DNA from: Bordetella parapertussis
Lineage (GTDB): Bacteria > Pseudomonadota > Gammaproteobacteria > Burkholderiales > Casimicrobiaceae
Reading direction: 5' to 3'
Assembly (NCBI GenBank): GCA_943331295.2
Contig: CALQLA020000009.1
Coordinates: 58,477 to 122,476 of the forward strand
DNA: 64,000 bases
A program made the position numbers and the translations under genes. Position 1 is the stretch's first letter; each line of letters starts with the position of its first letter. A model generated the notes under the pieces. That model was not told the origin of the DNA and did no database searches. It was given only the letters and a program-made list of their open reading frames with translations. Positions 8,203 to 63,462 of this stretch are shown here, in pieces.

Positions 8203-11200
8203 ATGGCTGGTCGCGCTTTGCGTGCCTTGGCAGCAGGTGTGGTGGCAATTGCGGTATTGGGAAGCTCCGCCTCGTTCGGGGCGGGACGGTTCCAGAAGGC
8301 CAGTCCGCTGGTCGTCGAAAGCGGGGCGCGGATCCCGCCCGGTCTCGACACCACGCCGGTTACCGTCGTCGTGATGCTTGCCGGCGACCCGGTCGCCACC
8401 GCGCAGGAAACCGCGGGCCGCAGGCTGTCGCGCGGCGAGAAGGATGCCGTCAAGGGCATGCGCAAGAGCGAGCAGAAGTCCATCGAGCCGCAGATCAAGG
8501 CGGCAGGTGGCAAGATCGTCGGCTCGTTCCAGAGCGCGATCAACGGCATCAAGGTGCAGATCGCCCGCAACAAGCTGGGCGCGCTGTACCAGATCGCAGG
8601 CGTGGTCGACGTCAAGAGCGTGAACCGCTACGAGCGCGACAACGCGATCAGCGTGCCGCGCGTCCAGGCGCCGGCCGTCTGGGCGGGCATTCCCGGCTAC
8701 CGCGGCGAAGGCATCAAGGTCGCCGTGATCGACACCGGCATCGACTACACGCACGCAAACTTCGGCGGGCCGGGAACCACGCTCGCGTTCGACACCGCGG
8801 CCGCTTCCAGCGCGTCGCCGGCGAACCCGGCGCTGTTCGGGCCCGGCGCGCCGAAGGTCAAGGGCGGCATCGATCTGGTCGGCGACGACTACGACGCCGA
8901 CAACAACCCGGTCGCCGTTCCCGATCCGAACCCGCTCGACTGCATCGACGCCGGGCACGGCTCGCACGTCGCGGGCACAGTCGCCGGCTACGGCGTGCTG
9001 CCGAACGGAAGCAAGTACACCGGTCCGTACGACCTCAGCACGCACAACACCACGTTCCGCATCGGACCCGGCGTCGCGCCGAGGGCCGACCTGTACGCGG
9101 TCCGTGTGTTCGGCTGCTTCGGTACGACCGACGTCGTCGTCGAGGCGCTCGACTGGGCCGTCGACAACGACATGGACGTCGTCAACATGTCGCTGGGCTC
9201 GTCCTACGGCACTTCCGACAGCGCCGATGCCACGGCGTCGGACAATGCGGTCAAGGCGGGCATCGTTGTCGTCGCCTCGGCGGGCAACTCCAATGCGTTG
9301 AAGTACATCACCAGCTCGCCGGCGTCGAGCACCCGCACGATCTCGGTTGCCGCCGCCACTACACCGGCGATTATTCCGTTCGCCGCTATGGCGCTGCCGT
9401 TGGCCGGTAGCGATCCCGCAGGGACGGTCACCGGCATAGACGCCAATGGCTACGTATTTGCCGGCCCGGTTGCAGGCATTGTCAAAGTGCTGACGGATGG
9501 CAACGTACTTGGTTGCAGCACGGCGGCGTTCGCCGGCGCTGCCGGTAAGATCGCTGTCGTCCAGCGCGGCTCGTGCGGCCGTACCGCCAAGGCGATCTAC
9601 GGCCAACAGGCAGGTGCGATCGCCGTGATCATGGTCAACAACTCCACCGGCCTTCCGCCCTACGAAGGTCCGATCTTCCAGAATCCGGACGACGGCGCGT
9701 ACTACGACGTCACCATTCCGTTCATCGGTGTCACGCCGGAAGATGGAGCCCGGTTGGCGCTGCGGGATGGCCTGTCGATCACGATGACTGCCGGCGCGCC
9801 GCAGTTGTCCGATCTCGCCGGCTTCTCGTCCGGCGGCCCGCGCAACGGCGACAGCATGCTGAAGCCCGACATCGCGGGGCCCGGCACCGGCATCGTGTCG
9901 ACGTTCGTCGGCAGCGGCAACCTGCAGGAAGCGCTGTCCGGTACGTCGATGGCGTCGCCGCACGTCGCGGGTGTTGCAGCGCTGGTGCAGCAGGCGCATC
10001 CGAAGTGGAAGCCGAGCCAGGTGAAGGCGGCGATCATCAACAGCGGCGATCCGCTGCAGATCGCGGGCTACGTCACGCGCAACGCGGGTGCCGGCATGGT
10101 CAACGCCGCGGCCGCCGCCAAGACGCAGGTCACCGCAACCGCGGACGACCAGGCGACCAGCATGAGCTTCGGCCTCGAGGAGATCGACAAGAACTACTCG
10201 AAGCAGCGGACGATCAAGCTGCACAACGACGGCGCCACGGATGCCACGTTCACCGTCTCGACGATGCTGCCGCAGGGTTCGCCGCACACGGTGACGCTGA
10301 GCGCAACGACGGTGACGGTCAAGGCAAAGAAGGACGCCGAGGTCAAGGTCACGCTGAACGTGCCGGTCGGCACGGCGGGCAACTCCGACGCCTTCCGCGA
10401 CGTGGCGGGCCTCGTCAAGTTCACGCCGCTGTCCGTGGCGCACAACAACGGCATCGGCATGAAGGTGCCGTACTACATGGTGCCGCGCGTGATGTCGAAG
10501 GTCGACGCCAAGCTGGCGGCGCCGGTCAAGCTGGCGAACCCGAACGGGATCGTCAACCTGACCAACAAGAACAGCCCGATCGCCGCGACCGCCGATTTCT
10601 ACAGCTGGGGCCTGCAGGGCAAGGGCAAGGACAGCACCAAGAAGAACCAGACCATCAACCTGGCGGCGGCCGGCGTCCAGCAGTGGGACTCGCCCGACGG
10701 TCAGGTGCTGGTCTTTGCGCTGACGCATGAGGAAGGCTGGTCGGCGCCGTCGACGCGCGAATTCGACGTGTACATCGACCTCGACGGTGACGGGCAGGCG
10801 GATGTCGCGGTGATCGGCATCGACTACGGGCTGATCACTACCGGGGCGGACAATGGCCAGATGGCGGCAGCGATTGCGTACTGGAATGGCTCCTTCTTCG
10901 ACATCGTCGGCGTCGGTTTCCTCGCCCAAGCCTCCACCGACGGCAGCACGATCCTGTTGCCGGTCCTCGCGGCGGATCTTGGCCTGTCGCCGGCGAACCC
11001 GCGATTCAGCTACACCGCTCAGGTGTACGACCTGCTGAGCAACGCGACCGACGCGTTCGCGAAGAGCGCGAAGTACAACGCGTTCGGCAGCGCCATCACC
11101 GACGGCCAGTACGGACCGATCGCGCCGAATGCCGCGATAGCGGTTCCGTTCACGGTAAACCCCACCGAGCTCGTGTTGACGCCGGCGCTGGGCCTGATGG

Positions 11201-11268
11201 TCGTCACGCAGGACAACAAGAACGGCAAGGAAGAAGCCAACCTGGTGAAGATCGAAGTCAAGCCCTGA
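8203..11268 (+). CDS. Secreted subtilisin-like serine protease (peptidase S8) with PA insert
   Basis: A 1021-residue exported protease. Residues 1 to about 27 are a signal peptide (basic start, ALAAGVVAIAVLG core). An inhibitor-I9-like propeptide spans about 50-145. The catalytic triad is D177 (VAVIDTGIDYTHA), H252 (GHGSHVAGTV) and S582 (SGTSMASPHVAG). A protease-associated (PA) domain is inserted between His and Ser at about 400-480 (GKIAVVQRGSCG). About 380 residues after the catalytic domain form a beta-rich Fn3-like C-terminal region that includes an EFDVYIDLDGDGQADV segment, possibly calcium-binding. An AGGGGAGA ribosome site precedes the ATG. A clear promoter lies upstream and a terminator downstream, so it is a single-gene unit. 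It probably digests extracellular protein; peptides could feed the Dpp transporter downstream, which is inference. Confidence 0.93.
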   Translation: MAGRALRALAAGVVAIAVLGSSASFGAGRFQKASPLVVESGARIPPGLDTTPVTVVVMLAGDPVATAQETAGRRLSRGEKDAVKGMRKSEQKSIEPQIKAAGGKIVGSFQSAINGIKVQIARNKLGALYQIAGVVDVKSVNRYERDNAISVPRVQAPAVWAGIPGYRGEGIKVAVIDTGIDYTHANFGGPGTTLAFDTAAASSASPANPALFGPGAPKVKGGIDLVGDDYDADNNPVAVPDPNPLDCIDAGHGSHVAGTVAGYGVLPNGSKYTGPYDLSTHNTTFRIGPGVAPRADLYAVRVFGCFGTTDVVVEALDWAVDNDMDVVNMSLGSSYGTSDSADATASDNAVKAGIVVVASAGNSNALKYITSSPASSTRTISVAAATTPAIIPFAAMALPLAGSDPAGTVTGIDANGYVFAGPVAGIVKVLTDGNVLGCSTAAFAGAAGKIAVVQRGSCGRTAKAIYGQQAGAIAVIMVNNSTGLPPYEGPIFQNPDDGAYYDVTIPFIGVTPEDGARLALRDGLSITMTAGAPQLSDLAGFSSGGPRNGDSMLKPDIAGPGTGIVSTFVGSGNLQEALSGTSMASPHVAGVAALVQQAHPKWKPSQVKAAIINSGDPLQIAGYVTRNAGAGMVNAAAAAKTQVTATADDQATSMSFGLEEIDKNYSKQRTIKLHNDGATDATFTVSTMLPQGSPHTVTLSATTVTVKAKKDAEVKVTLNVPVGTAGNSDAFRDVAGLVKFTPLSVAHNNGIGMKVPYYMVPRVMSKVDAKLAAPVKLANPNGIVNLTNKNSPIAATADFYSWGLQGKGKDSTKKNQTINLAAAGVQQWDSPDGQVLVFALTHEEGWSAPSTREFDVYIDLDGDGQADVAVIGIDYGLITTGADNGQMAAAIAYWNGSFFDIVGVGFLAQASTDGSTILLPVLAADLGLSPANPRFSYTAQVYDLLSNATDAFAKSAKYNAFGSAITDGQYGPIAPNAAIAVPFTVNPTELVLTPALGLMVVTQDNKNGKEEANLVKIEVKP

Positions 11269-13280: not shown

Positions 13281-13311
13281 CCCGGGTTGAGCGAAGCGAA
13301 ACCCGGGCTAC
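13277..13311. repeat. GTAGCCCGGGTT palindrome (REP-like), copy 1
   Basis: Perfect 12-bp inverted arms GTAGCCCGGGTT and AACCCGGGCTAC enclose an 11-base loop. The left arm contains the TAG stop codon of rlmB. A second element with the same arms overlaps the gltX stop codon at 38808. Such palindromes are common between genes in betaproteobacteria and may stabilise or end transcripts. Confidence 0.8.
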
Positions 13312-13352
13312 GCAAACCCCTCGAGCCACGCGAAGGCACGGGCCCCCCGCAG

Positions 13353-13381
13353 TTGCCTTCGCGCGCCGACGCGACTAGCAT
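13353..13381 (+). promoter_or_regulatory. Promoter of the dpp operon
   Basis: TTGCCT (13353-13358), a 17-bp spacer and TAGCAT (13376-13381) lie 53 bp before the dppA start codon, directly after the REP-like palindrome. Confidence 0.55.
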
Positions 13382-13433
13382 TGGCCGGTTATTCGCCCGC
13401 GGGCGATTTTCACGACTTTCGACCGAGGAAATC

Positions 13434-15068
13434 ATGTCGCACACCGCATTCCCCACCCGTTCGCGCCGCGTCGCCACGGCACTGGCCGTGGCACTCGCCG
13501 CAGCGCTGCCGTTCGCAGCCGGCGTCACCCAGGCCAAGGGCACGCTCGTCTACTGCTCGGAAGGCAGCCCCGAGGGCTTCCAGCCGCAGTTCTTCTCGAC
13601 CGGAACCACGTTCGACGCCGTGTCGGTGCCGATGTTCAACCGGCTGGTCGAGTTCGACATCGGCACCACGAACATCGTGCCGGCGCTGGCCGAGTCGTGG
13701 ACCGTGTCGCCGGACGGCAAGGTCGTGACGTTCAAGCTGAGGAAGGGCGTCAAGTTCCACAGCAACGCGAACTTCAAGCCCACCCGCGACTTCAACGCCG
13801 ACGACGTGCTGTTCAGCTGGAGCCGGATGGCCGACGACGCCAACCCGTTCCACAAGATCACGGCGGGCCAGACGTTCGCGTACTTCGAAGACATGGGCAT
13901 GAAGAACATCGTCGACAAGGTCGAGAAGATCGACGACTACACGGTGAAGTTCACGCTGAAGCGCCCCGAGGCGCCGTTCCTCGCCGACATGGCGATGGAC
14001 TTCGCTTCGATCCTGTCGAAGGAGTACTTCGAGGCGATGATGAAGAAGGGCACGCCCAACGCGGCCGACGTCTACCCGATCGGCACCGGCCCGTTCGAGT
14101 TCGTGTCGTACCAGAAGGACGCCACGATCCGCTACAAGGCGTTCGACGGCCACTTCCGCGGCCGGCCGAAGGTCGACTCGCTGGTGTTCTCGATCACCCG
14201 CGACGCCACCGCGCGCTACGCCAAGCTGAAGACCGGCGAATGCCACGTGATGGCGTTCCCGAAGCCCGCCGACCTGCCGGCGATGAAGGCCGACCCGACG
14301 CTCGACGTGCTGCAGAAGGAAGGCCTCAACATCGGCTACATCGCGTTCAACACCGAGAAGAAGCCGTTCGACAACAAGCTCGTCCGCCAGGCGCTCAACA
14401 TGGCGATCGACAAGGAGTCGATCCTGAAGTCCGTGTACCAGGGCCAGGGCCAAGTCGCGAAGAACCCGATCCCGCCGATCCTCTGGAGCTACAACAACGC
14501 CGTCAAGGACTACCCGTTCGACATCGCCAAGGCCAAGGAACTGCTGGCCAAGGCCGGCTATCCGAACGGTTTCGAGGTCGACCTCTGGTACCTGCCGGTC
14601 ACGCGGCCGTACAACCCGGACGGCAAGCGGATGGCCGAACTGATCCAGGCCGACTGGGAGAAGATCGGGGTCAAGGCGAAGCTCGTCACCTACGAATGGG
14701 CCGAGTACCGGAAGCGCAGCAAGACCGGCGAGCAGTCGGTGATGATGTTCGGCTGGTCCGGCGACAACGGCGACCCCGACAACTTCTTCGTCCCGCTGCT
14801 GGGCTGCGAGGCGGTCAAGGGCGGCGGCAACGTCGCGCGCTGGTGCAACAAGGAGTTCGAGGACCTGATCATCAAGGCGGCGCAGACGCCGAAGCAGGCC
14901 GACCGCGCGAAGCTCTACGAGCAGGCGCAGGTGATCTTCAAGGAAGAGGCGCCGTGGATCACCGTGGCGCACTCGATCCGCTTCGACCCCATCCGCAAGG
15001 AAGTGAAGGGGTACAAGATGGACGCGACGGCGCACCATTATTTCAACAACGCCGACATCGTTAAGTAA
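13434..15068 (+). CDS. dppA: Dipeptide ABC transporter, periplasmic binding protein
   Basis: A 544-residue SBP_bac_5 family protein that captures di- or oligopeptides in the periplasm. A signal peptide covers about residues 1-33 (basic RSRR start, hydrophobic core, AQA-type cleavage region near VTQAKG). The mature start GTLVYCSEGSPEGFQPQF matches DppA of gammaproteobacteria, and family blocks GTGPFEFVSYQKDA and RQALNMAIDKESI are present. Start ATG 13434 follows a GAGGAA site; the longer frame from 13287 would bury the signal peptide. It heads a five-gene operon with both permeases and both ATPases. Haem or 5-aminolevulinate are other known DppA ligands, so substrate range is not fixed. Confidence 0.92.
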   Translation: MSHTAFPTRSRRVATALAVALAAALPFAAGVTQAKGTLVYCSEGSPEGFQPQFFSTGTTFDAVSVPMFNRLVEFDIGTTNIVPALAESWTVSPDGKVVTFKLRKGVKFHSNANFKPTRDFNADDVLFSWSRMADDANPFHKITAGQTFAYFEDMGMKNIVDKVEKIDDYTVKFTLKRPEAPFLADMAMDFASILSKEYFEAMMKKGTPNAADVYPIGTGPFEFVSYQKDATIRYKAFDGHFRGRPKVDSLVFSITRDATARYAKLKTGECHVMAFPKPADLPAMKADPTLDVLQKEGLNIGYIAFNTEKKPFDNKLVRQALNMAIDKESILKSVYQGQGQVAKNPIPPILWSYNNAVKDYPFDIAKAKELLAKAGYPNGFEVDLWYLPVTRPYNPDGKRMAELIQADWEKIGVKAKLVTYEWAEYRKRSKTGEQSVMMFGWSGDNGDPDNFFVPLLGCEAVKGGGNVARWCNKEFEDLIIKAAQTPKQADRAKLYEQAQVIFKEEAPWITVAHSIRFDPIRKEVKGYKMDATAHHYFNNADIVK

Positions 15069-30316: not shown

Positions 30317-30506
30317 ACGGCCAGAAATGTGTTGTATATGGTTGTCCAAGACATATCACGCACCAAATGGGTGCCGACTGCGATCCGTTTTGTTGCATTT
30401 GTCCCGGGCGCCGTAGCTCTCCCGGTGTAAGTGGCCCGTCGCAAAGGGGTTTGTCCGGATGGCCCGGCGCTTGCTTGATACTGCAAACGAACCACTGAAA
30501 ACGAAC

Positions 30507-31922
30507 ATGTCCCGCCAACCTTACGACGAAATGCATCACCCGGACGGCAGCATCCGGCCGCATTACCAGCCGTTTGCCGACTGGCTCGCCGCAACGCCGG
30601 CCGGCCGGATCGCGCAGAAGCGGGAGGAGGCCGAGCGGGCGTTCCATCGGCTCGGCATCACGTTCGCGGTCTACGGCGAGGAAGCCGGCACCGAGCGCCT
30701 CATCCCGTTCGACCTTGTCCCGCGGATCATCCCGGCGTCGGAGTGGGCGTCGCTCGAGCGCGGCCTCCTGCAGCGCGTGCAGGCGCTCAACCTGTTCCTG
30801 CACGACATCTATCACGAGCAAAAGATCATCGCGGCCGGGCGCGTGCCGGCCGAGCGCGTGCTCGGCAACACGCAGTACCGGCCGGAGATGCAGGGCCTGA
30901 ACCTGCCCGGGGGAATCTACGCGCACATCACGGGCGTCGACCTCGTGCGGGCCGGGGAGGGCGAGTGGTATGTCCTCGAGGACAACATGCGCGTGCCCTC
31001 CGGCGTGTCGTACATGCTGGAAAACCGCCGGATGATGATGCGGCTCCTGCCCGAGCTCTTCGCCACGCAGTCGATCCGCCCGGTCCAGCACTACCCCGAC
31101 ATGCTGCTGAAGACGCTGCACGCCGTGTCGCCCGCCGGCGAGGATTCGCCAACGGTGACGGTGCTGACGCCCGGCGCCTACAACTCCGCCTATTTCGAGC
31201 ATGCGTTCGTCGCCCAGCAGATGGGCGTGCAGCTGGTCGAGGGGCAGGACCTCTTCGTCCAGAACGACACCGTGTTCATGCGCACGACGCGCGGCCCCGA
31301 GCGGGTGCACGTGATCTACCGGCGCGTCGACGACGATTTCCTCGACCCGAACGCGTTCCGGGCCGACTCGATGATCGGCGTCCCGGGGCTCTTCGCCGCG
31401 TATCGCGCGGGCCGGGTGACCCTCGCCAACGCGATCGGCACCGGCGCCGCGGACGACAAGTCGGTCTACCCGTACGTGCCGGACATGATCCGCTACTACC
31501 TCGGCGAGGAGCCGATCCTCAACAACGTCCCCACCTACCAGTGCGGGCGCCAGCCCGAGCGCGACTACGTGCTGGAGCACCTCGACGAGCTGGTGGTCAA
31601 GGAGGTCCATGGCGCTGGCGGCTACGGCATGCTGGTCGGCCCGGCCAGCACCGCCGAGGAGCGGGCCGTGTTCCGCGAGCGGATCCTCGCCTCGCCGCAG
31701 ACGTACATCGCGCAGCCGACGCTGGCGCTGTCGACCTGCCCGACGTTCGTCGAGTCGGGGCTCGCCCCGCGCCACATCGACCTGCGGCCGTACGTGCTGT
31801 CCGGCAAGACCGTGACGCTGGTGCCGGGCGGGCTCACGCGGGTGGCGCTGCGCGAGGGGTCGCTGGTGGTGAACTCGTCGCAGGGCGGCGGCACCAAGGA
31901 CACCTGGGTGGTCGAGGATTGA
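30507..31922 (+). CDS. Circularly permuted ATP-grasp protein (Anbu-operon peptide ligase)
   Basis: About 471 residues of the circularly permuted ATP-grasp family (DUF404/DUF407 type). Family blocks are visible: YDEMHHPDGSIRPHY at the N-terminus; NLFLHDIYHEQKI; the VLEDNMRVPSGVSYMLENR region; the permuted ATP-binding HGAGGYGMLVGP glycine loop; and a C-terminal LRPYVLSGKTVTLVPGG. The enzyme is predicted to form an amide bond using ATP. The start at 30507 begins just before the conserved part; an in-frame ATG at 30459 would add 16 non-conserved residues. It heads a gene set with the alpha-E protein, Anbu and the transglutaminase/GS-like ligase. Its substrates are unknown. Confidence 0.85.
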   Translation: MSRQPYDEMHHPDGSIRPHYQPFADWLAATPAGRIAQKREEAERAFHRLGITFAVYGEEAGTERLIPFDLVPRIIPASEWASLERGLLQRVQALNLFLHDIYHEQKIIAAGRVPAERVLGNTQYRPEMQGLNLPGGIYAHITGVDLVRAGEGEWYVLEDNMRVPSGVSYMLENRRMMMRLLPELFATQSIRPVQHYPDMLLKTLHAVSPAGEDSPTVTVLTPGAYNSAYFEHAFVAQQMGVQLVEGQDLFVQNDTVFMRTTRGPERVHVIYRRVDDDFLDPNAFRADSMIGVPGLFAAYRAGRVTLANAIGTGAADDKSVYPYVPDMIRYYLGEEPILNNVPTYQCGRQPERDYVLEHLDELVVKEVHGAGGYGMLVGPASTAEERAVFRERILASPQTYIAQPTLALSTCPTFVESGLAPRHIDLRPYVLSGKTVTLVPGGLTRVALREGSLVVNSSQGGGTKDTWVVED

Positions 31923-31972
31923 CCGCCGGCGGCGGACATCGAACAGCAGTCAGCGAACAAGGGGACGAGTGA

Positions 31973-32935
31973 ATGCTTTGCCGGGTAGCCAGTGAACTGT
32001 TCTGGATGGCGCGCCATATCGAGCGGGCCGAGAACATGGCGCGGATGCTGGACGTCACGTACCGCACGTCGCTGCTGCCGTACCAGGTGACCGAGCCGGG
32101 GTTGAGCTGGGCGGAGCCCTGGTCGGTGCCGCTCATCACCAGCGGCCTCGCCACGACCTACTACGAGCGGCATCCGGTGCTGTCGGCGGAGACGGTGCTG
32201 AAGTTCATGATCCTCGACAGCACCAACCCCTCGTCGGTCTACTGCTGCCTGCGCGCGGCCCGCGAGTCGGCGCGCAGCGTGCGCGGCGCCATCACGTCGG
32301 AGATGTACGAGGACCTCAACACGGCCTGGCTCGAGATGCGGCGCTACGACTACGACACCGTCCGCCAGATGGGCGTGTCCGACTTCCTCGAATGGGTGAA
32401 GATGCGCTCGCACCTGTTCCGCGGCGTGACCTTCGGCACGATGCTGCGCGACGAGGCATACCACTTCATCCGCCTCGGCACGCACCTGGAGCGCGCCGAC
32501 AACACCGCCCGGATCCTCGACGTGAAGTACCACCTGCTGCTGCCGTCGGCGCACGATGTCGGCGGCGCGGTCGACTACTACCAGTGGGCGGCGGTGCTGC
32601 AGTCGGTGTCGGGGTTCGAGTCGTACCGCAAGATCTACAGCGACGTGATCACGCCGCGCCGGGTCGCCGAGCTCCTGATCCTGCGCGACGACATGCCGCG
32701 GTCGCTGCACTGCTGCATGAACTTCATCAACGAGACGATCGAGCGCCTCTCCGACGGCCACGCGCACTCCGGGGAACTGGAGCGGGTGTCCGGCCAGCTG
32801 CATGCGCTGCTCCACTACGGCCGCACCGACGACATCATCGAGCTCGGCCTGCACGAGTACCTGATGGACTTCCTGGAGCGGATATCCGAGCTGGGCGACG
32901 AGATCAGCCGCGTTTTCCTGGCGCCTTCGAATTAG
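31973..32935 (+). CDS. Alpha-E domain protein (DUF403)
   Basis: A 320-residue all-helical protein of the alpha-E family. It starts MLCRVASELFWMARHIERAE, the hallmark opening, and repeats a similar helix later (HLERADNTARILD). No catalytic motif is known; the family is almost always next to the permuted ATP-grasp protein and is thought to be its partner. It lies 50 bp after that gene and 59 bp before Anbu. Confidence 0.88.
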   Translation: MLCRVASELFWMARHIERAENMARMLDVTYRTSLLPYQVTEPGLSWAEPWSVPLITSGLATTYYERHPVLSAETVLKFMILDSTNPSSVYCCLRAARESARSVRGAITSEMYEDLNTAWLEMRRYDYDTVRQMGVSDFLEWVKMRSHLFRGVTFGTMLRDEAYHFIRLGTHLERADNTARILDVKYHLLLPSAHDVGGAVDYYQWAAVLQSVSGFESYRKIYSDVITPRRVAELLILRDDMPRSLHCCMNFINETIERLSDGHAHSGELERVSGQLHALLHYGRTDDIIELGLHEYLMDFLERISELGDEISRVFLAPSN

Positions 32936-32994
32936 GTTCCCCCGAAGTTCGGTAGAATCGGAGGCTCGACCCACGCCTGCCCGACCCTCCAAAG

Positions 32995-33726
32995 ATGACC
33001 TACTGCGTTGCCATGTCCCTCGACGCGGGACTTATATTCGCGTCTGACTCCCGGACCAACGCCGGGGTCGACCAGATCGCCCGCTTCTCGAAGATGCGGA
33101 CCTTCGTCAAGCCGGCCGACCGCGTGGTCGTCACGCTGTCGTCGGGCAACCTGTCGATCACGCAGAACGCGCTCAACACGCTGGAGCAGCGCGCGCGGCA
33201 GGGCGACGGCCAGCTGCACCTGTGGAACGCGACGTCGATGTTCGACATCGCGCGGCTGATCGGCGACGCGCTGCGCGAGGTCAAGAACCGGGACGGCGTG
33301 TACCTCGCCCAGAACAACATCGACTGCAGCGCCAATTTCCTGGTCGGCGGCCAGATCCGGGGCGAGCCGCCGCGGCTGTTCGAGGTGTACAGCGAAGGCA
33401 ACTTCATCGAGGCCACGCCGGACACCTGCTATTTCCAGATCGGCGAGAGCAAGTACGGCAAGCCCGTGATCGACCGGGTGGTGAACCGCCACACGTCGCT
33501 GATCGACGCGACCAAGTGCACGATCGTGTCGTTCGACTCGACGATGCGCTCGAACATCTCCGTCGGGCTGCCGATCGACCTCGTCGTCATCGAGACCGAT
33601 GCGCTCAACATCCGGATGCAGCGCCGGATCGAGGAAACCGATCCGTACTTCCAGATGGTCCACACACAATGGGGCGAAGGCCTGCGGCGCGTGTTCGCGC
33701 AGCTGCCGAACCCCGAATGGGGATGA
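32995..33726 (+). CDS. Anbu, bacterial proteasome-related NTN-hydrolase
   Basis: A 243-residue homologue of proteasome beta subunits and HslV. It opens MTYCVAMSLDAGLIFASDSR; removal of Met would expose Thr as the N-terminal nucleophile, and the SDSRTNAGVD and FSKMRTF segments supply the conserved Asp/Ser and Lys region. In studied cases Anbu forms open helical or ring-like assemblies; a natural substrate is not established. A TAGAAT -10-like element sits 37 bp upstream, so it may also have its own promoter. It is followed after 23 bp by the large ligase gene. The shared neighbourhood suggests it processes a peptide made or attached by the ligases. Confidence 0.9.
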   Translation: MTYCVAMSLDAGLIFASDSRTNAGVDQIARFSKMRTFVKPADRVVVTLSSGNLSITQNALNTLEQRARQGDGQLHLWNATSMFDIARLIGDALREVKNRDGVYLAQNNIDCSANFLVGGQIRGEPPRLFEVYSEGNFIEATPDTCYFQIGESKYGKPVIDRVVNRHTSLIDATKCTIVSFDSTMRSNISVGLPIDLVVIETDALNIRMQRRIEETDPYFQMVHTQWGEGLRRVFAQLPNPEWG

Positions 33727-33749
33727 CGGCCTCGACGCCGTCCTGACAC

Positions 33750-36700
33750 ATGGCTATCCGAGTCGCCCTGCAGCATCGCACCACGTATCGCTTCGACCGG
33801 CAGGTCAATCTCGGTCCGCACGAGATCCGGCTGCGCCCGGCGCCGCACTGCCGCACGCCGATCCTCGGGTACTCGTTCAACGTCGCCCCCGACAAGCATT
33901 TCCTGAACTGGCAGCAGGACCCCTACGGCAACTGGGTCGCGCGGCTGGTGTTCACGGCGCCCGCCGACCGGCTCGAGATCGTCGTCGACGTCGTCGCCGA
34001 CATGACGGTGATCAACCCGTTCGACTTCTTCGTCGAGCCCTACGCCGAACTGTTCCCGCTCAGGTACGCGCCGGCGCTCGGGAAGGAGCTGATCCCGTTC
34101 CTCGAGACCGAGCCGCCGGGGCCGCTGCTCGCCGCATGGCTCGAGCGGTTCCGCGCCACGCTCACCGGCGGGGAAAAGACCGTCGACATGCTGGTGGCGC
34201 TCAACCAGCAGCTGCAGCGCGAAATCCAGTACCTGGTCCGGATGGAGCCGGGCGTGCAGACGCCGCAGGAAACCCTTGAGTCCGCGCGCGGCTCCTGCCG
34301 CGACAGCGGCTGGCTGCTGGTGCAGATCCTGCGCCACCTGGGGTTGGCCGCGCGGTTTGCCTCGGGCTACCTGATCCAGCTCGTCGCCGACATCAAGCCG
34401 CTGGACGGCCCCGGCGGCCCCAGCCATGACTTCACCGACCTGCACGCCTGGGCCGAGGTGTACCTGCCCGGCGCCGGCTGGGTCGGCTTCGACCCGACCT
34501 CCGGCCTGCTCGCGGGCGAGGGCCACATCCCGCTCGCGTGCACCGCCGACCCCGGCAACGCGGCTCCCGTGATCGGCTTCACCGATGTCTGCGAAGTCGA
34601 GTTCGAGGTGGCGATGACGCTGACGCGCGTCCACGAGGACCCTCGGGTCACGCGGCCCTACAGCGACGAGCAGTGGGACGCGATCCAGGCCCTCGGCCGG
34701 CGCGTCGACGCCGACCTCGTTCGCAACGACGTCCGGCTGACGCAGGGCGGCGAGCCCACGTTCGTGTCGATCGACGACATGGACGGCGCCGAATGGAACT
34801 TCACGGCGCTGTCGGCGAAGAAGCGCGAGTTGGCCGAGGCCCTGACGCGCCGCCTCGCGCTGAAGTTCGGTCCCAACGGCTTCCTGCACGACGGTCAGGG
34901 CAAGTGGTATCCCGGCGAGCCGCTGCCGCGCTGGGCGCTCGGCATCTACTGGCGCACCGACGGCAAGCCGCTGTGGCACGACCGCGAGCTGATCGCCGAC
35001 ACCCGGAAGCCCGGCGCCGCGGACATGCCCGCCGGCGAGAGTTTCGCGACGCTGCTCGCCACCGGGCTCGGACTCGCCCCGTCCGCGGTGATCACCGCCT
35101 ACGAGGACATGCCGAAGCTCCTCGCCGCCGAGGCGGCGCTGCCGGTCAACGCCGATCCGCTGAAGGCCGACCTCACCAAGTATGACGAGCGCGCGCGGCT
35201 CGCGCGGCTGCTGCAGCAGGGCCTCGACCGGCCCGCGGGGTTCGTGCTGCCGCTGCGCGCCGTTCCCCCCGCCACGCCCGGCGCGGATGGCGCGACCGCC
35301 TGGCAGACGAGCCCGTGGCCGCTGCGGCGCGAGCGGCTCTACGCGACTGCCGGCGACTCGCCCCTCGGACTGCGGCTGCCGCTGTCGTCGCTGCCCGAGG
35401 TGCTGCCGGGCGACGAGGACCCGGACCGCGAGCGCGACCCGTTCGCACCGCGCGACGCGCTGGCCGACCCGCCGGCGCGAGCGAAGGCGCCGCCGCCGAA
35501 GTGGCCGCCGCATCCGGCGCCGGACGCGCTGGCGGTGCAGGCGCCGCCGCGCGACGACGGCCCCGCCGAACTGCGCTTGCCCGCGGCAATGACCCCCGGC
35601 AGCCCGCCCGCCGCCGGCGGGGTCTGGCGCAGCATCCTCGCGGCGCTGTCGCCGCGGCGCGCGCCGCCGCCGGCGGCCGTCCCGCCGACGCCGTCTGCCG
35701 TGGATGCTGCCGTGGATGCTGCCGTGGATGCTGCCGTGGATGCTGCCGCGGTCGCGACGAGAGCGAAGCCCGACGCCACGGCGACGGCTGCGCCGGCCGC
35801 CATCGCGGCGAAGGACGTGATCAAGACGGCGCTGACGGTCCAGGTGCGCAACGGCCACGTCTACGTGTTCATGCCGCCGCTGGTGCGCCTCGAGGACTAT
35901 GTCGCGCTGCTCTCGGCGATCGAGACGACGGCCGCCACGGTCGGCGTGCCCGTCGCCATCGAAGGCTACACGCCGCCGCGCGACCCGCGGCTTCGCGTGT
36001 GCAACGTCACGCCGGACCCGGGCGTGATCGAGGTCAACGTCCATCCCGCGTCGTCGTGGGACGACCTGGTCGCCACCACCGAGACGCTGTACGAGGAAGC
36101 GCGCCAGTCGCGGCTCGGCACCGAGAAGTTCATGCTCGACGGCCGGCACACCGGCACCGGCGGCGGCAACCACGTCACGCTGGGCGGCGCGGTGTCGGCC
36201 GACAGCCCGCTGCTGCGACGGCCGGACCTGCTGCGCAGCCTCATCGCATACTGGCAGAACCACCCGTCGCTGTCGTACCTCTTCTCCGGCATGTTCATCG
36301 GCCCGACGAGCCAGGCGCCGCGCGTCGACGAGGCGCGCGACGACCGGCTCTACGAGCTGGAGATCGCCTTCCAGCAGATGGCGCAGAAGCACGGCGCCGG
36401 CGGGGAGTCGCCCGCGCCCTGGCTCGTCGATCGACTGCTGCGCAACCTGCTGACCGACCTCACCGGCAACACGCACCGGTCCGAGTTCTCGATCGACAAG
36501 CTCTATTCGCCCGACGGGCCGGCCGGGCGCCTGGGCCTCCTCGAGTTCAGGGCCTTCGAAATGCCGCCGCACGCGCGGATGAGCGCCGTGCAGATGCTGC
36601 TGCTGCGCGCGCTGGTCGCCCGTTTCTGGAAGACCCCGTACGAAGGAGGGCTGGTGCGCTGGGGCACGGCGCTGCACGACCGCTGGCTGCTGCCGCATTT

Positions 36701-37343
36701 CGTCGCGCAGGACATGCGCGACGTGGTCAACGACCTCAACGCCGCCGGCTACCCGTTCTCCAATTCGTGGTTCGCGCCGTTCGTCGAGTTCCGGTTCCCG
36801 AGCTTCGGCACTGTCAGCTACGACGGCGTCACGATCGAGCTGCGGCAGGCGATCGAGCCGTGGCACGTGCTGGGCGAGGAGATGAGCGGCGGCAGCACGT
36901 CGCGCTACGTCGACTCGTCGGTGGAGCGCCTCGAGGTCAAGGTCGTCGGCATGACCGGCGCGCGGCACAAGGTGACCTGCAACGGCCGGTCGCTGCCGCT
37001 GGCGCCCACCGGCATACCCGGCGTGTTCGTCGCGGGCGTCCGCTACCGCGCGTGGAACCCGCCGTCGGCGCTGCACCCGACGATCGGCGTCCAGGCGCCG
37101 CTGGTGTTCGACCTGATCGACACCTGGGCCGCCCGCGCCATCGGCGGCTGCACCTACCACGTCGTGCATCCGGGCGGGCGCAACTACGACAGCTTCCCGG
37201 TCAACGCCAACGAAGCCGAAGCGCGCCGGCACGGGCGGTTCTGGGCGCACGGCCACACGCCGGGCCCGCAGCGCCTGGCCGACGAGCCGGCGAACCCGGC
37301 GACGCCGACCACGCTCGACCTGCGCTGGCAGCCCAGGGCGTGA
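33750..37343 (+). CDS. Transglutaminase-like protein fused to permuted glutamine-synthetase-like ligase (DUF2126)
   Basis: A 1197-residue multidomain protein. Residues 1 to about 160 are the transglutaminase-associated N-terminal domain. The transglutaminase fold (about 165-270) has its triad: C183 in RGSCRDSG, the His in DLHAWAEVY and the Asp in GFDPTSG. From about 320 onward lies DUF2126, described by comparative genomics as a circularly permuted glutamine-synthetase-like amidoligase: TQGGEPTFVSIDD, the metal-site-like HTGTGGGNHVTLGG near 800, and LLEFRAFEMPPHARM. A Pro/Ala/Arg-rich insert at about 520-680 holds a 12-bp tandem repeat and is probably disordered. The ligase would add an amino acid or amine; the transglutaminase-like domain may cleave or transfer. 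It ends the Anbu gene set, 61 bp before gltX. Confidence 0.88.
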   Translation: MAIRVALQHRTTYRFDRQVNLGPHEIRLRPAPHCRTPILGYSFNVAPDKHFLNWQQDPYGNWVARLVFTAPADRLEIVVDVVADMTVINPFDFFVEPYAELFPLRYAPALGKELIPFLETEPPGPLLAAWLERFRATLTGGEKTVDMLVALNQQLQREIQYLVRMEPGVQTPQETLESARGSCRDSGWLLVQILRHLGLAARFASGYLIQLVADIKPLDGPGGPSHDFTDLHAWAEVYLPGAGWVGFDPTSGLLAGEGHIPLACTADPGNAAPVIGFTDVCEVEFEVAMTLTRVHEDPRVTRPYSDEQWDAIQALGRRVDADLVRNDVRLTQGGEPTFVSIDDMDGAEWNFTALSAKKRELAEALTRRLALKFGPNGFLHDGQGKWYPGEPLPRWALGIYWRTDGKPLWHDRELIADTRKPGAADMPAGESFATLLATGLGLAPSAVITAYEDMPKLLAAEAALPVNADPLKADLTKYDERARLARLLQQGLDRPAGFVLPLRAVPPATPGADGATAWQTSPWPLRRERLYATAGDSPLGLRLPLSSLPEVLPGDEDPDRERDPFAPRDALADPPARAKAPPPKWPPHPAPDALAVQAPPRDDGPAELRLPAAMTPGSPPAAGGVWRSILAALSPRRAPPPAAVPPTPSAVDAAVDAAVDAAVDAAAVATRAKPDATATAAPAAIAAKDVIKTALTVQVRNGHVYVFMPPLVRLEDYVALLSAIETTAATVGVPVAIEGYTPPRDPRLRVCNVTPDPGVIEVNVHPASSWDDLVATTETLYEEARQSRLGTEKFMLDGRHTGTGGGNHVTLGGAVSADSPLLRRPDLLRSLIAYWQNHPSLSYLFSGMFIGPTSQAPRVDEARDDRLYELEIAFQQMAQKHGAGGESPAPWLVDRLLRNLLTDLTGNTHRSEFSIDKLYSPDGPAGRLGLLEFRAFEMPPHARMSAVQMLLLRALVARFWKTPYEGGLVRWGTALHDRWLLPHFVAQDMRDVVNDLNAAGYPFSNSWFAPFVEFRFPSFGTVSYDGVTIELRQAIEPWHVLGEEMSGGSTSRYVDSSVERLEVKVVGMTGARHKVTCNGRSLPLAPTGIPGVFVAGVRYRAWNPPSALHPTIGVQAPLVFDLIDTWAARAIGGCTYHVVHPGGRNYDSFPVNANEAEARRHGRFWAHGHTPGPQRLADEPANPATPTTLDLRWQPRA
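35697..35744 (+). repeat. Four perfect copies of a 12-bp unit inside the DUF2126 gene
   Basis: GCCGTGGATGCT is repeated four times without a mismatch and in frame, encoding (AVDA)x4 at about residues 650-665. It lies in the Pro/Ala-rich insert between conserved ligase blocks. Because the unit is a multiple of three, copy-number change would alter linker length and keep the frame. Confidence 0.95.
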
Positions 37344-37404: not shown

Positions 37405-38811
37405 GTGACCGCTTCGATCCGCACCCGCTTCGCCCCCAGCCCGACGGGGTTCCTGCACCTGGGCGGCGCCCGCACCGCGCTCTTCGCCTGGGCGCTCGCA
37501 CGCCGGAACCAGGGGACGTTCATCCTCCGCATCGAGGACACCGACGTCGCGCGCTCGACGCAGGCGGCGGTCGACGCGATCCTCGACGCGATGCGCTGGC
37601 TGGGCCTCGACTACGACGAGGGCCCGTATTACCAGATGCAGCGGATGGACCGCTATCGCGCGGTCGTCGCCGACATGGTCGAGCGCGGGCTCGCCTACCG
37701 GTGCTACATGCAGCCCGCCGAGCTCGACGCGCTGCGCGCCGAGCAGATGGCGCGCGGCGACAAGCCGCGCTACGACGGCCGCTGGCGGCCGGAGAACGCC
37801 GCGGGCAGGGTGCCGCCCGCGGGCGTCGCGCCGGTGATCCGCTTTCGCAACCCGCTGGAAGGCAGCGTCGCCTGGGACGACCGGGTCAAGGGCACGATCA
37901 GCATCGCCAACGCCGAGCTCGACGACCTCGTGATCGCGCGCCCGGACGGCACGCCGACGTACAACTTCTGCGTCGTCGTCGACGACATCGACATGCGGAT
38001 CACCCACGTCGTCCGCGGCGACGACCACGTCAACAACACGCCGCGGCAGATCAACATCTTCCGCGCGCTCGGCGCGGCGCCGCCGGTGTACGCGCACGTG
38101 CCGACGGTGCTGGGCGAGGACGGGCAGAAGCTCTCCAAGCGCCACGGCGCGGTGAGCGTGATGCAGTACGAGGAGATGGGCTACCTCCCCGAGGCGCTGG
38201 TCAATTTCCTGGCGCGCCTCGGGTGGGCGCACGGCGACGCCGAGGTCTTCACCCCGGCGGAATTCGTCGCCTGGTTCGACCTCGACCACATCAGCCCGTC
38301 GCCGTCGCGCTTCGACACCGAGAAGCTGCGCTGGGTGAACCAGGAGCACATGAAGCGGATGGACGGCGAGGCTCTGGGGCGGCGGCTCGTGCCCTACCTG
38401 CAGCGCGCCGGGCTCGATCCGGCCACGGGCCCCGCGCCGGCGGCGGTGGCGCTGCTGCTGCGCGACCGGGCGGCCACGCTGGTCGAGATGGCCGACGCCG
38501 CGCATTACCTCTACGTGCCGCCGCGGCCGGATGCGCAGGCGATCGCGGCGCAGGTGAATGCGGCGAACCGGCCGGCGCTCGACGACCTCGCTGCCGAGTT
38601 TGCAGGCCTCGCGTGGACCCGGGAGGCCCTCGGCGCGGCGATGAAGGCCGCCGCGACCCGCCACGGGATCAAGGCGCCGCAGGTGATGATGGCCATGCGC
38701 CTCCTGGTCTGCGGGACGCCCCAGACACCCGCGATCGACGCCGTGCTGACGCTGCTGGGGCGCGACGCGACGCTCGCGCGCCTGGCGGCCGGGCTCGCCG
38801 CCATTTCGTAG
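37405..38811 (+). CDS. gltX: Glutamyl-tRNA synthetase
   Basis: A 468-residue class I aminoacyl-tRNA synthetase. The HIGH-type motif is [14 protein letters not shown] at about 11-24 and the KMSKS-type motif is KLSKRHG near 242. The Rossmann core, stem-contact and C-terminal anticodon-binding domains are full length. The start is GTG at 37405, with a TAAAAT -10 element 27 bp upstream. Its TAG stop lies in a GTAGCCCGGG palindrome. Confidence 0.95.
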
Positions 38812-62342: not shown

Positions 62343-62733
62343 CAGTTTAGTTGGGCGGCGACAATGATCTTGACCGGTCGGTGGAACGTCGGTGGAACGA
62401 CAAGCAGGATGACCGGTAGCGAGGAGTCGAAGGCGGCGTAGCCGCCGTAGACGACGAGCTACCGGCGGCGCCGGGTTGGTGGGGTTCACGATGGAGGGCC
62501 GAGGTCTCAACAAGAGGTCGGCCCAGTGCCAGGAACCCGTATCACCGATCAACAGGTCTGCCTCTACAGGTTGCCTCGACCGCGGCCGTGGGCGGGGGCT
62601 GGCAGTCTTTGTTCCGGCATTTCTCGCACGTGAAGGCATGGTCGTGGCGCGCTGGCAGCGGCATCCTGACCCTGGTCATCCGGTATACTCCAGGCAGAGC
62701 CGGCCTCGCAACATTCCCCATCTCCAGGCGCCC
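62343..62733. other. Gene-poor stretch between repeats and kinase gene
   Basis: This 391-bp stretch continues the IS-like sequence (GGTGGAACG appears twice near 62379-62400) and has no gene I can support. A TATACT at 62684 could be the -10 element of the kinase gene; the -35 is weak. The short minus-strand frame across it is Arg/Pro-rich and unlike any family I recognise. Confidence 0.3.
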
Positions 62734-63462
62734 ATGACGACCAAATCCCAACCCGCTCCCGTGGTCATTCTCGTCAACGGGCCGAGCTCATCCGGAAAAT
62801 CAACTGCCTGTCGAGCCTTGCAGGAACGGCTGACCGATCTCGCAGACGGTGACATCACCGCCACCTTTGCGTCTGTGGCGTTTGACGACAAGTTTCGATT
62901 GATCTCCGACAAGCTCTATTCCATCGATTTCGTGAAATGTTCGGGTGGCGACCTCAACCGGCTTGCCTCCCGCGAGCCGAACGACGGTCGTGCCGCCTGG
63001 GAATACATCGATGACGGCAACGCCGAGGGGAAGCACGGGGGGAGTCCCCGCATCCGGCTCGTCCTCAACCCTCACACCCGCCGATTGCTGACTGGAATTC
63101 ACCGCGGCTGGGGTGAACACCTCAAACTCGGCACGAATCTCATCATCGATCATTTCCTGCAGGAAAGGGAGTGGTGCGAAGAGGTCATCGGGGTCATCAA
63201 GGATTCGGGGGCCCGCATTTTCCTGGTGGGGATTTTCTGCTCACTGCAGGAACTGGAGCAGCGCGAAACCTCCCGCGGCGACGGGCGAGTGGAGGGCCGC
63301 CCCCTCGGAATGGCGCGAAGAAGCGATGAGATCTGCCACTCGCATGGTCTGCAGTACGACGTGACGGTCCGGACAGATCAGCAGACCACCGCGGAATCGG
63401 TCGATACGATCGTTGCAGCACTCCGGGCGGCCGATTGCCTGCCGGGAAAACCGGCTGCGTGA
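62734..63462 (+). CDS. Chloramphenicol phosphotransferase-like kinase
   Basis: A 242-residue P-loop protein of the chloramphenicol 3-O-phosphotransferase (CPT) family. The Walker A GPSSSGKST is at 16-24. The LIIDHFLQ block matches the DDVFL region of CPT, and IFLVGIFCSLQELEQRE followed by TSRGDGR matches the Arg-containing lid. YDVTVRTD corresponds to the family end block. Streptomyces CPT is about 178 residues; the extra length lies in the middle (about 55-125). ATG 62734 starts a few residues before the first strand. Real antibiotic resistance is not shown; many family members have unknown substrates. Confidence 0.8.
   Translation: MTTKSQPAPVVILVNGPSSSGKSTACRALQERLTDLADGDITATFASVAFDDKFRLISDKLYSIDFVKCSGGDLNRLASREPNDGRAAWEYIDDGNAEGKHGGSPRIRLVLNPHTRRLLTGIHRGWGEHLKLGTNLIIDHFLQEREWCEEVIGVIKDSGARIFLVGIFCSLQELEQRETSRGDGRVEGRPLGMARRSDEICHSHGLQYDVTVRTDQQTTAESVDTIVAALRAADCLPGKPAA

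Follow-up and report, generated by a model that had tools for sequence, protein, structure and literature searches.

An Anbu gene set with a transglutaminase-DUF2126 fusion and predicted NtrC- and sigma54-type control sequences

Described Anbu operons and the present locus

Anbu, a relative of the proteasome, is widespread, and its operon was reportedly described by Valas and Bourne in 2008 and by Iyer et al. in 2009. Here we describe an Anbu gene set at positions 30507–37343 of a 64,000-nucleotide stretch (the window) of Bordetella parapertussis contig CALQLA020000009.1 (assembly GCA_943331295.2), together with the predicted nitrogen-control sequences in front of it.

The published accounts are cited here from excerpts of the papers. 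A permuted ATP-grasp protein, an alpha-E protein, a transglutaminase-like protein and Anbu occur together in the Anbu operon (PMC6376114, PMC5666114); the Yersinia ATP-grasp protein releases phosphate from ATP (PMC6376114), and an open ring is reported for Anbu, along with up-regulation under nitrogen limitation (PMC5666114). Nitrogen control of Anbu-type operons is not new in itself, since it has been published for relatives in Pseudomonas putida and Burkholderia cenocepacia. In nitrogen-limited wild-type P. putida, PP_2686–2688 are up 11 to 15-fold and PP_2685 (Anbu) 1.12, with NtrB/NtrC named by the authors as the putative regulator of PP_2686–2688 (PMC7801951); in reporters the region upstream of PP_2688 (ATP-grasp) gave a 3.7-fold response to nitrogen limitation and that of PP_2685 none (PMC8050072). 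The B. cenocepacia genes I35_5080–5083 depend on NtrC and sigma54 (PMC5491218), COG3484 is listed in proteobacterial sigma54 regulons (PMC12316311), and these domains have been linked with urea metabolism in marine metagenomes (PMC3597751).

The present locus is a real and unbroken Anbu gene set, of the type in which DUF2126 is part of a fusion. It has the permuted ATP-grasp, alpha-E, transglutaminase-like and Anbu components of the Anbu operon side by side and co-directional, in four neighbouring genes on the + strand that are likely one operon. The order differs: here the ATP-grasp, alpha-E and Anbu genes are followed by a transglutaminase-DUF2126 fusion, whereas elsewhere (e.g. loci L034 and L040) a separate short transglutaminase precedes Anbu. 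The initial annotation had already recognized four consecutive co-directional genes and the fusion, and both are borne out, the former by the open frames and the matches to Pfam families and solved structures and the latter by Pfam matches within one frame (33750–37343); its identification of the set as the amidoligase system of the literature agrees with the protein families and with the published descriptions as excerpted. It had also called the set complete and intact. All four frames are open, so the set is intact; it is complete only in a relative sense, as 10 of the 39 Anbu genomes yielded no DUF2126 match and a second Anbu lies elsewhere in this genome. The P. putida PP_2688–2685 and B. 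cenocepacia I35_5080–5083 clusters are similar in being induced by nitrogen limitation or dependent on NtrC and sigma54, and in carrying ATP-grasp or DUF404/407, alpha-E/DUF403 and transglutaminase genes. They differ in that the excerpts describe PP_2686 as a protein with a transglutaminase domain and do not name DUF2126, that the B. cenocepacia cluster as listed there has no proteasome-type gene, and that regulation at the present locus is predicted from sequence.

Predicted nitrogen-control sequences before the gene set

An exact NtrC-type enhancer palindrome and a predicted sigma54 promoter, beginning 100 bp apart, lie upstream of the ATP-grasp gene (Table 1). They had been missed in the initial annotation and are an addition made here. 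The two consensus sequences and the offset of the start site are what we take to be the accepted ones. Because sequences of both types stand in front of it, the gene set is likely to be induced when nitrogen is scarce. When the 300 bp upstream are shuffled 4000 times with dinucleotides preserved, four shuffles reach the sigma54 score, six contain an exact box and none has both; the 5.1 Mb genome holds 30 exact NtrC boxes and 14 matches to a reversed control pattern. The same genome encodes NtrC (709 bits), sigma54 and two P-II genes. The glnK-amtB operon, in which a Gcw_chp gene comes first, carries in front of that gene a sigma54-like site preceded at 89 bp by a 9-of-10 NtrC box, a spacing similar to the 100 bp of the present locus; another sigma54-like site stands 82 bases ahead of the glnA start. 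A sigma54 site with the full consensus (TGGCACG-N4-TTGCT; locus L020, contig C39:33853–33868, - strand) is also present ~0.6 kb before a gene for a type IV pilin.

Control sites of both kinds recur in related loci. The best 80 Anbu loci among the matches listed were sampled and 74 scored; the six left out had an ATP-grasp gene that was truncated, inverted or too close to the end of its contig. A strong sigma54 site has a score of at least 13.5 of 15.5 and a good NtrC box at least 9 of 10 matches; scores and thresholds were chosen by us from the consensus and were not set in advance, and counts across genomes ignore kinship. In class A, DUF2126 follows Anbu (n = 12, including L033 with DUF2126 on the opposite strand); class B (n = 23) includes L025 and L058, in which DUF2126 matches precede the ATP-grasp gene; and class C has no ATP-grasp match in the stretch examined (n = 39, of which 25 have the full 8 kb upstream, and which counts L023 only because its contig ends within alpha-E).

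Strong sigma54 sites precede the first gene in 9/12 class A and 18/23 class B operons (27/35 together) and none of the 39 class C Anbu genes (Fisher 2e-13); shuffles lead one to expect 0.95 of 35, and 2.0% of 3200 random stretches have such a site. NtrC boxes with 9 or 10 matches are found in 18/35 class A and B operons and 2/39 class C loci. The ATP-grasp gene itself was scored in the 21 class C genomes among 30 loci listed (nine class A or B rows there repeat operons and were not recounted), and has a sigma54 promoter in 15/21 and an NtrC box in 10/21. With promoters before 15 of 21 separate ATP-grasp genes and 27 of 35 operons but before no class C Anbu gene, nitrogen control therefore seems to follow the ATP-grasp (ligase) side, not Anbu. 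The P. putida reporters, responsive for PP_2688 and not for PP_2685, agree with this. We did not find this tracking of the ligase side across genomes, or the presence of nitrogen control with a DUF2126 fusion, stated in the excerpted literature.

Ligases, partner protein and hydrolases

The two putative ligases are built differently. Pfam CP_ATPgrasp_2 (568.7 bits) and CP_ATPgrasp_1 (514.5 bits) match the same residues of the first gene product, which thus has one permuted domain; its invariant positions include E158-D159-N160, K365 and the GGG-x-K-D tail. For this gene we prefer the start at 30507 to that of the longest open reading frame, at 30459, because the match to the solved relative 3n6x opens two residues after 30507 and the predicted promoter overlaps 30459. 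The DUF2126 region (residues about 300–1170) is modelled as a glutamine synthetase (GS) fold and its model aligns in linear order with glutamine synthetases, with gamma-glutamylmethylamide synthetase GmaS among the GS-like matches, so that of the "two permuted amidoligases" first proposed only the ATP-grasp protein is permuted. By motif order, five of the six GS metal ligands can be placed (E335, E738, E761, H808 and E932). A loss of ATP- or metal-site residues in both ligases, which would have spoken against the initial annotation, is not seen. The scheme put forward there, in which a short peptide is made and afterwards removed or transferred, is a hypothesis. The fusion protein matched no solved chain by sequence at 1e-3. 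Its linker contains four tandem copies of VDAA (window 35700–35759), where the alignment has no consensus.

The alpha-E protein contains two related motifs, ERAENMAR (residues 17–24) and ERADNTAR (173–180), and 21 residues are invariant in 41 sequences, mostly charged or polar (including W11, R14, E17, R18, E20, R24, R97, R104, E113, N116, E173, D176, R180 and R243). These features suggest a binding or catalytic face more than a passive scaffold. The all-helical model has a predicted local distance difference test (pLDDT) score of 90.1 and matched no known fold with confidence. Some open frames of ~840–1100 amino acids contain both the ATP-grasp and alpha-E domains.

Anbu has no Pfam family match at 1e-3 and matches five solved Anbu sequences (5loy, 5lox, 5nyw, 5nyj and 5nyf; E 8e-93 to 6e-73). 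The homology is near full-length and includes the C-terminal part (query 2–242 on 5loy 1–239; 5loy, 5nyw and 5lox cover residues 2–240 or more). Thr directly follows Met, as initially noted, and Thr2 is the predicted nucleophile, which would be exposed once Met is removed. As in the solved complexes the Thr, Asp and Lys are kept: T2, D18 and K33 occur in 81/81 sequences, that of D18 partly by selection as it sits in the scan pattern. In the transglutaminase-like domain, Cys183 and Asp248 are present in 40/40 aligned sequences and His232 in 36/40. The second Anbu of the genome (L115:8898–9623; contig C47:28897–29622, - strand) is 56% identical to the first. After it come a further transglutaminase-like gene and a frame of the amidohydrolase family; the 17 kb examined around it gave no match to ATP-grasp, alpha-E or DUF2126.

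Table 1. Coordinates in the window of the Anbu gene set, its domains and the predicted control sequences.
Feature	Position	Strand	Details
NtrC-type enhancer palindrome GCACC-N5-GGTGC (exact)	30360..30374	+	only exact match in the 64 kb window
Predicted sigma54 (-24/-12) promoter TGGCCCG-GCGC-TTGCT	30460..30475	+	only exact TGGCNCGN4TTGCW match in the window; predicted transcription start near 30486
Circularly permuted ATP-grasp ligase	30507..31922	+	471 amino acids; Pfam PF14403 568.7 bits; solved relative 3n6x 745 bits, E 3e-223; 130 invariant residues in 39 sequences
Alpha-E protein	31973..32935	+	320 amino acids; Pfam PF04168 329.9 bits; modelled all-helical
Anbu, proteasome-beta-like Ntn hydrolase	32995..33726	+	243 amino acids; M1-T2 start; solved Anbu matches
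Transglutaminase-DUF2126 fusion	33750..37343	+	1197 amino acids; Pfam DUF2126 1298.7 bits; structure model
Transglutaminase-like domain	33750..34580	+	predicted triad C183, H232, D248
DUF2126, predicted GS-like ligase domain	34584..37325	+	low-confidence linker at about 35475–35795

Among 274 genomes of the taxonomic class, 69 have Anbu, 79 have alpha-E and 66 have both (odds ratio 325, p 4e-46), and Anbu is thus rarely found without alpha-E (3/69); two of these three genomes have half-length Anbu matches and the third is 78% complete. The association goes beyond mere linkage, since 21 of the 71 Anbu copies listed are more than 8 kb from alpha-E or on a different contig. Alpha-E is present in 2/14 named control genomes. 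All 39 genomes examined as sources of the loci (3 of class A, 7 of class B and 29 of class C) have both the permuted ATP-grasp and alpha-E, and 29 have DUF2126, which suggests that ATP-grasp, alpha-E and Anbu form the core, with the GS-like ligase as an apparently optional addition.

Anbu has other neighbourhoods as well. It adjoins an N-formylglutamate amidohydrolase-family gene in L039, L042 and L060 (a Mycobacterium, a Synechococcus and a gammaproteobacterium metagenome-assembled genome), L039 and L042 also having a transglutaminase-like gene of its own frame. In L064 it lies downstream of mutS and is followed by an alpha/beta hydrolase; the gene upstream of Anbu there belongs to a protein cluster shared by a total of 19 class C loci, Pfam having been run on L064 only.

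Downstream of the gene set, gltX (glutamyl-tRNA synthetase; window 37405–38811) begins ~60 bases away on the same strand; no gltX match was found in the examined stretches around the 80 Anbu loci. Elsewhere the window encodes a large subtilase-family peptidase with a PA domain (8203–11268), an extracellular solute-binding protein of family 5 (13287–15068) followed by co-directional transporter-size frames to about 19050, and a frame with a chloramphenicol phosphotransferase-like P-loop domain (62476–63462).

Explanations for the locus and comparison with known systems

Judging from the upstream sequences, the operon is very probably under nitrogen control, and there is a good probability that this control acts through sigma54. 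Chemistry in which a bond is ligated and later cleaved is somewhat favoured, and nitrogen recovery may, tentatively, be its purpose. The P. putida reporters and the NtrC and sigma54 dependence of the B. cenocepacia genes speak for the control, and the protein families, folds and conserved active sites for the chemistry. The best explanation, itself put forward with reserve, is that the locus is a nitrogen-limitation module that builds and cuts amide bonds and so conserves or recycles nitrogen. Phosphorylated NtrC, bound near 30367, would contact sigma54 polymerase at 30460–30475. The ATP-grasp protein, aided by alpha-E through its conserved Arg and Glu residues, would activate a carboxylate, which we guess to be glutamate or a glutamyl compound, and couple it to an amine; DUF2126, where present, would perform a second ligation, and the Cys and Thr hydrolases (the transglutaminase-like domain and Anbu) would release or transfer the acyl group.

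A number of observations weigh against parts of this explanation. Strong sigma54 sites are lacking in 8/35 operons and good NtrC boxes in 17/35. The exact sigma54 pattern occurs 4 times in the genome against 8 for its reversed control and is thus not enriched by itself; the NtrC box of glnA has only 8 of 10 matches, and neither site was found at the thresholds used around the other P-II gene or, as a strong site, directly upstream of the second Anbu. In P. putida, PP_2686–2688 are still induced 14 to 20-fold in an rpoN mutant, as in the wild type, which argues against sigma54 dependence there (PMC7801951), and PP_2685 mRNA itself rose on nitrate (log2 4.44; PMC8050072); unchanged expression in several conditions is also noted (PMC5666114). 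As to the chemistry, the sixth GS metal-ligand position of DUF2126 is an invariant Thr337, and the DUF2126 profile does not find the GlnA of its own genome. The negative activity assays of Yersinia Anbu (PMC6376114) and the preference for protein degradation drawn from inhibitor binding (PMC5666114) count against it as well. The rpoN result and the lack of enrichment of the sigma54 pattern would also fit promoter sequences that are there by chance or belong to another gene, with the operon constitutive or otherwise controlled; this is very improbable, as the two motifs coincide in none of the 4000 shuffles and the promoter recurs before the ligase-type operons and not the class C Anbu genes.

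The main rival to an amide-bond module is protein tagging or turnover in nitrogen starvation, similar to the Pup-proteasome system, in which the ligases would attach a short peptide to proteins and Anbu would remove it or degrade them. The locus has the same kinds of parts (a GS-like ligase, a proteasome homologue and nitrogen-control sequences), tagging is among the published hypotheses for the operon (PMC6376114), and proteasome inhibitors bind Anbu, for which protein degradation is preferred over peptide synthesis by those authors (PMC5666114). We nevertheless consider it unlikely: neither peptidase nor amidase activity nor a specific complex was found for Yersinia Anbu (PMC6376114), the Pup ligase family has no match in this genome (90% complete), no GS-like part was detected in 10 of the 39 Anbu genomes, and there is no unfoldase among the four genes, small tag genes having not been searched for. 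More speculative still would be a second and independent machine for tagging under nitrogen starvation in Proteobacteria, in which two ATP-dependent ligases put a short glutamyl tag on proteins or peptides, alpha-E is an essential binding partner of ATP-grasp, and Anbu is a tag-removing or tag-transferring enzyme rather than a bulk protease, shared between a ligase operon under nitrogen control and Anbu copies that are not subject to it. We hold equally doubtful a pathway that makes a dedicated small peptide or glutamylated amine (for storage, signalling or antimicrobial use) and releases it, the hydrolases serving in editing or maturation. The name of 3n6x (putative glutathionylspermidine synthase), the GmaS match of DUF2126 and the N-formylglutamate amidohydrolase-family genes adjoining some Anbu genes point towards it; on the other side, the four genes include no exporter (no search for precursor peptides or signal sequences was made), and induction by nitrogen shortage would speak against pure storage.

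The findings indicate the core proteins, the relevant condition (nitrogen limitation) and the first genes to target. The Pup-proteasome system likewise joins a GS-like ligase, Pup ligase having a GS fold, to a proteasome and is associated with nitrogen stress. The present set resembles it in combining a GS-like ligase with a proteasome-like protein in a predicted setting of nitrogen stress, and differs in its added ATP-grasp and alpha-E proteins and in having no unfoldase beside it. The pairing of an ATP-grasp ligase with a hydrolase is shared with the RimK/RimB and rlo systems, which, as excerpted, use an aspartic peptidase where the present locus has Anbu, the rlo system having an inactive membrane transglutaminase (PMC12239564).

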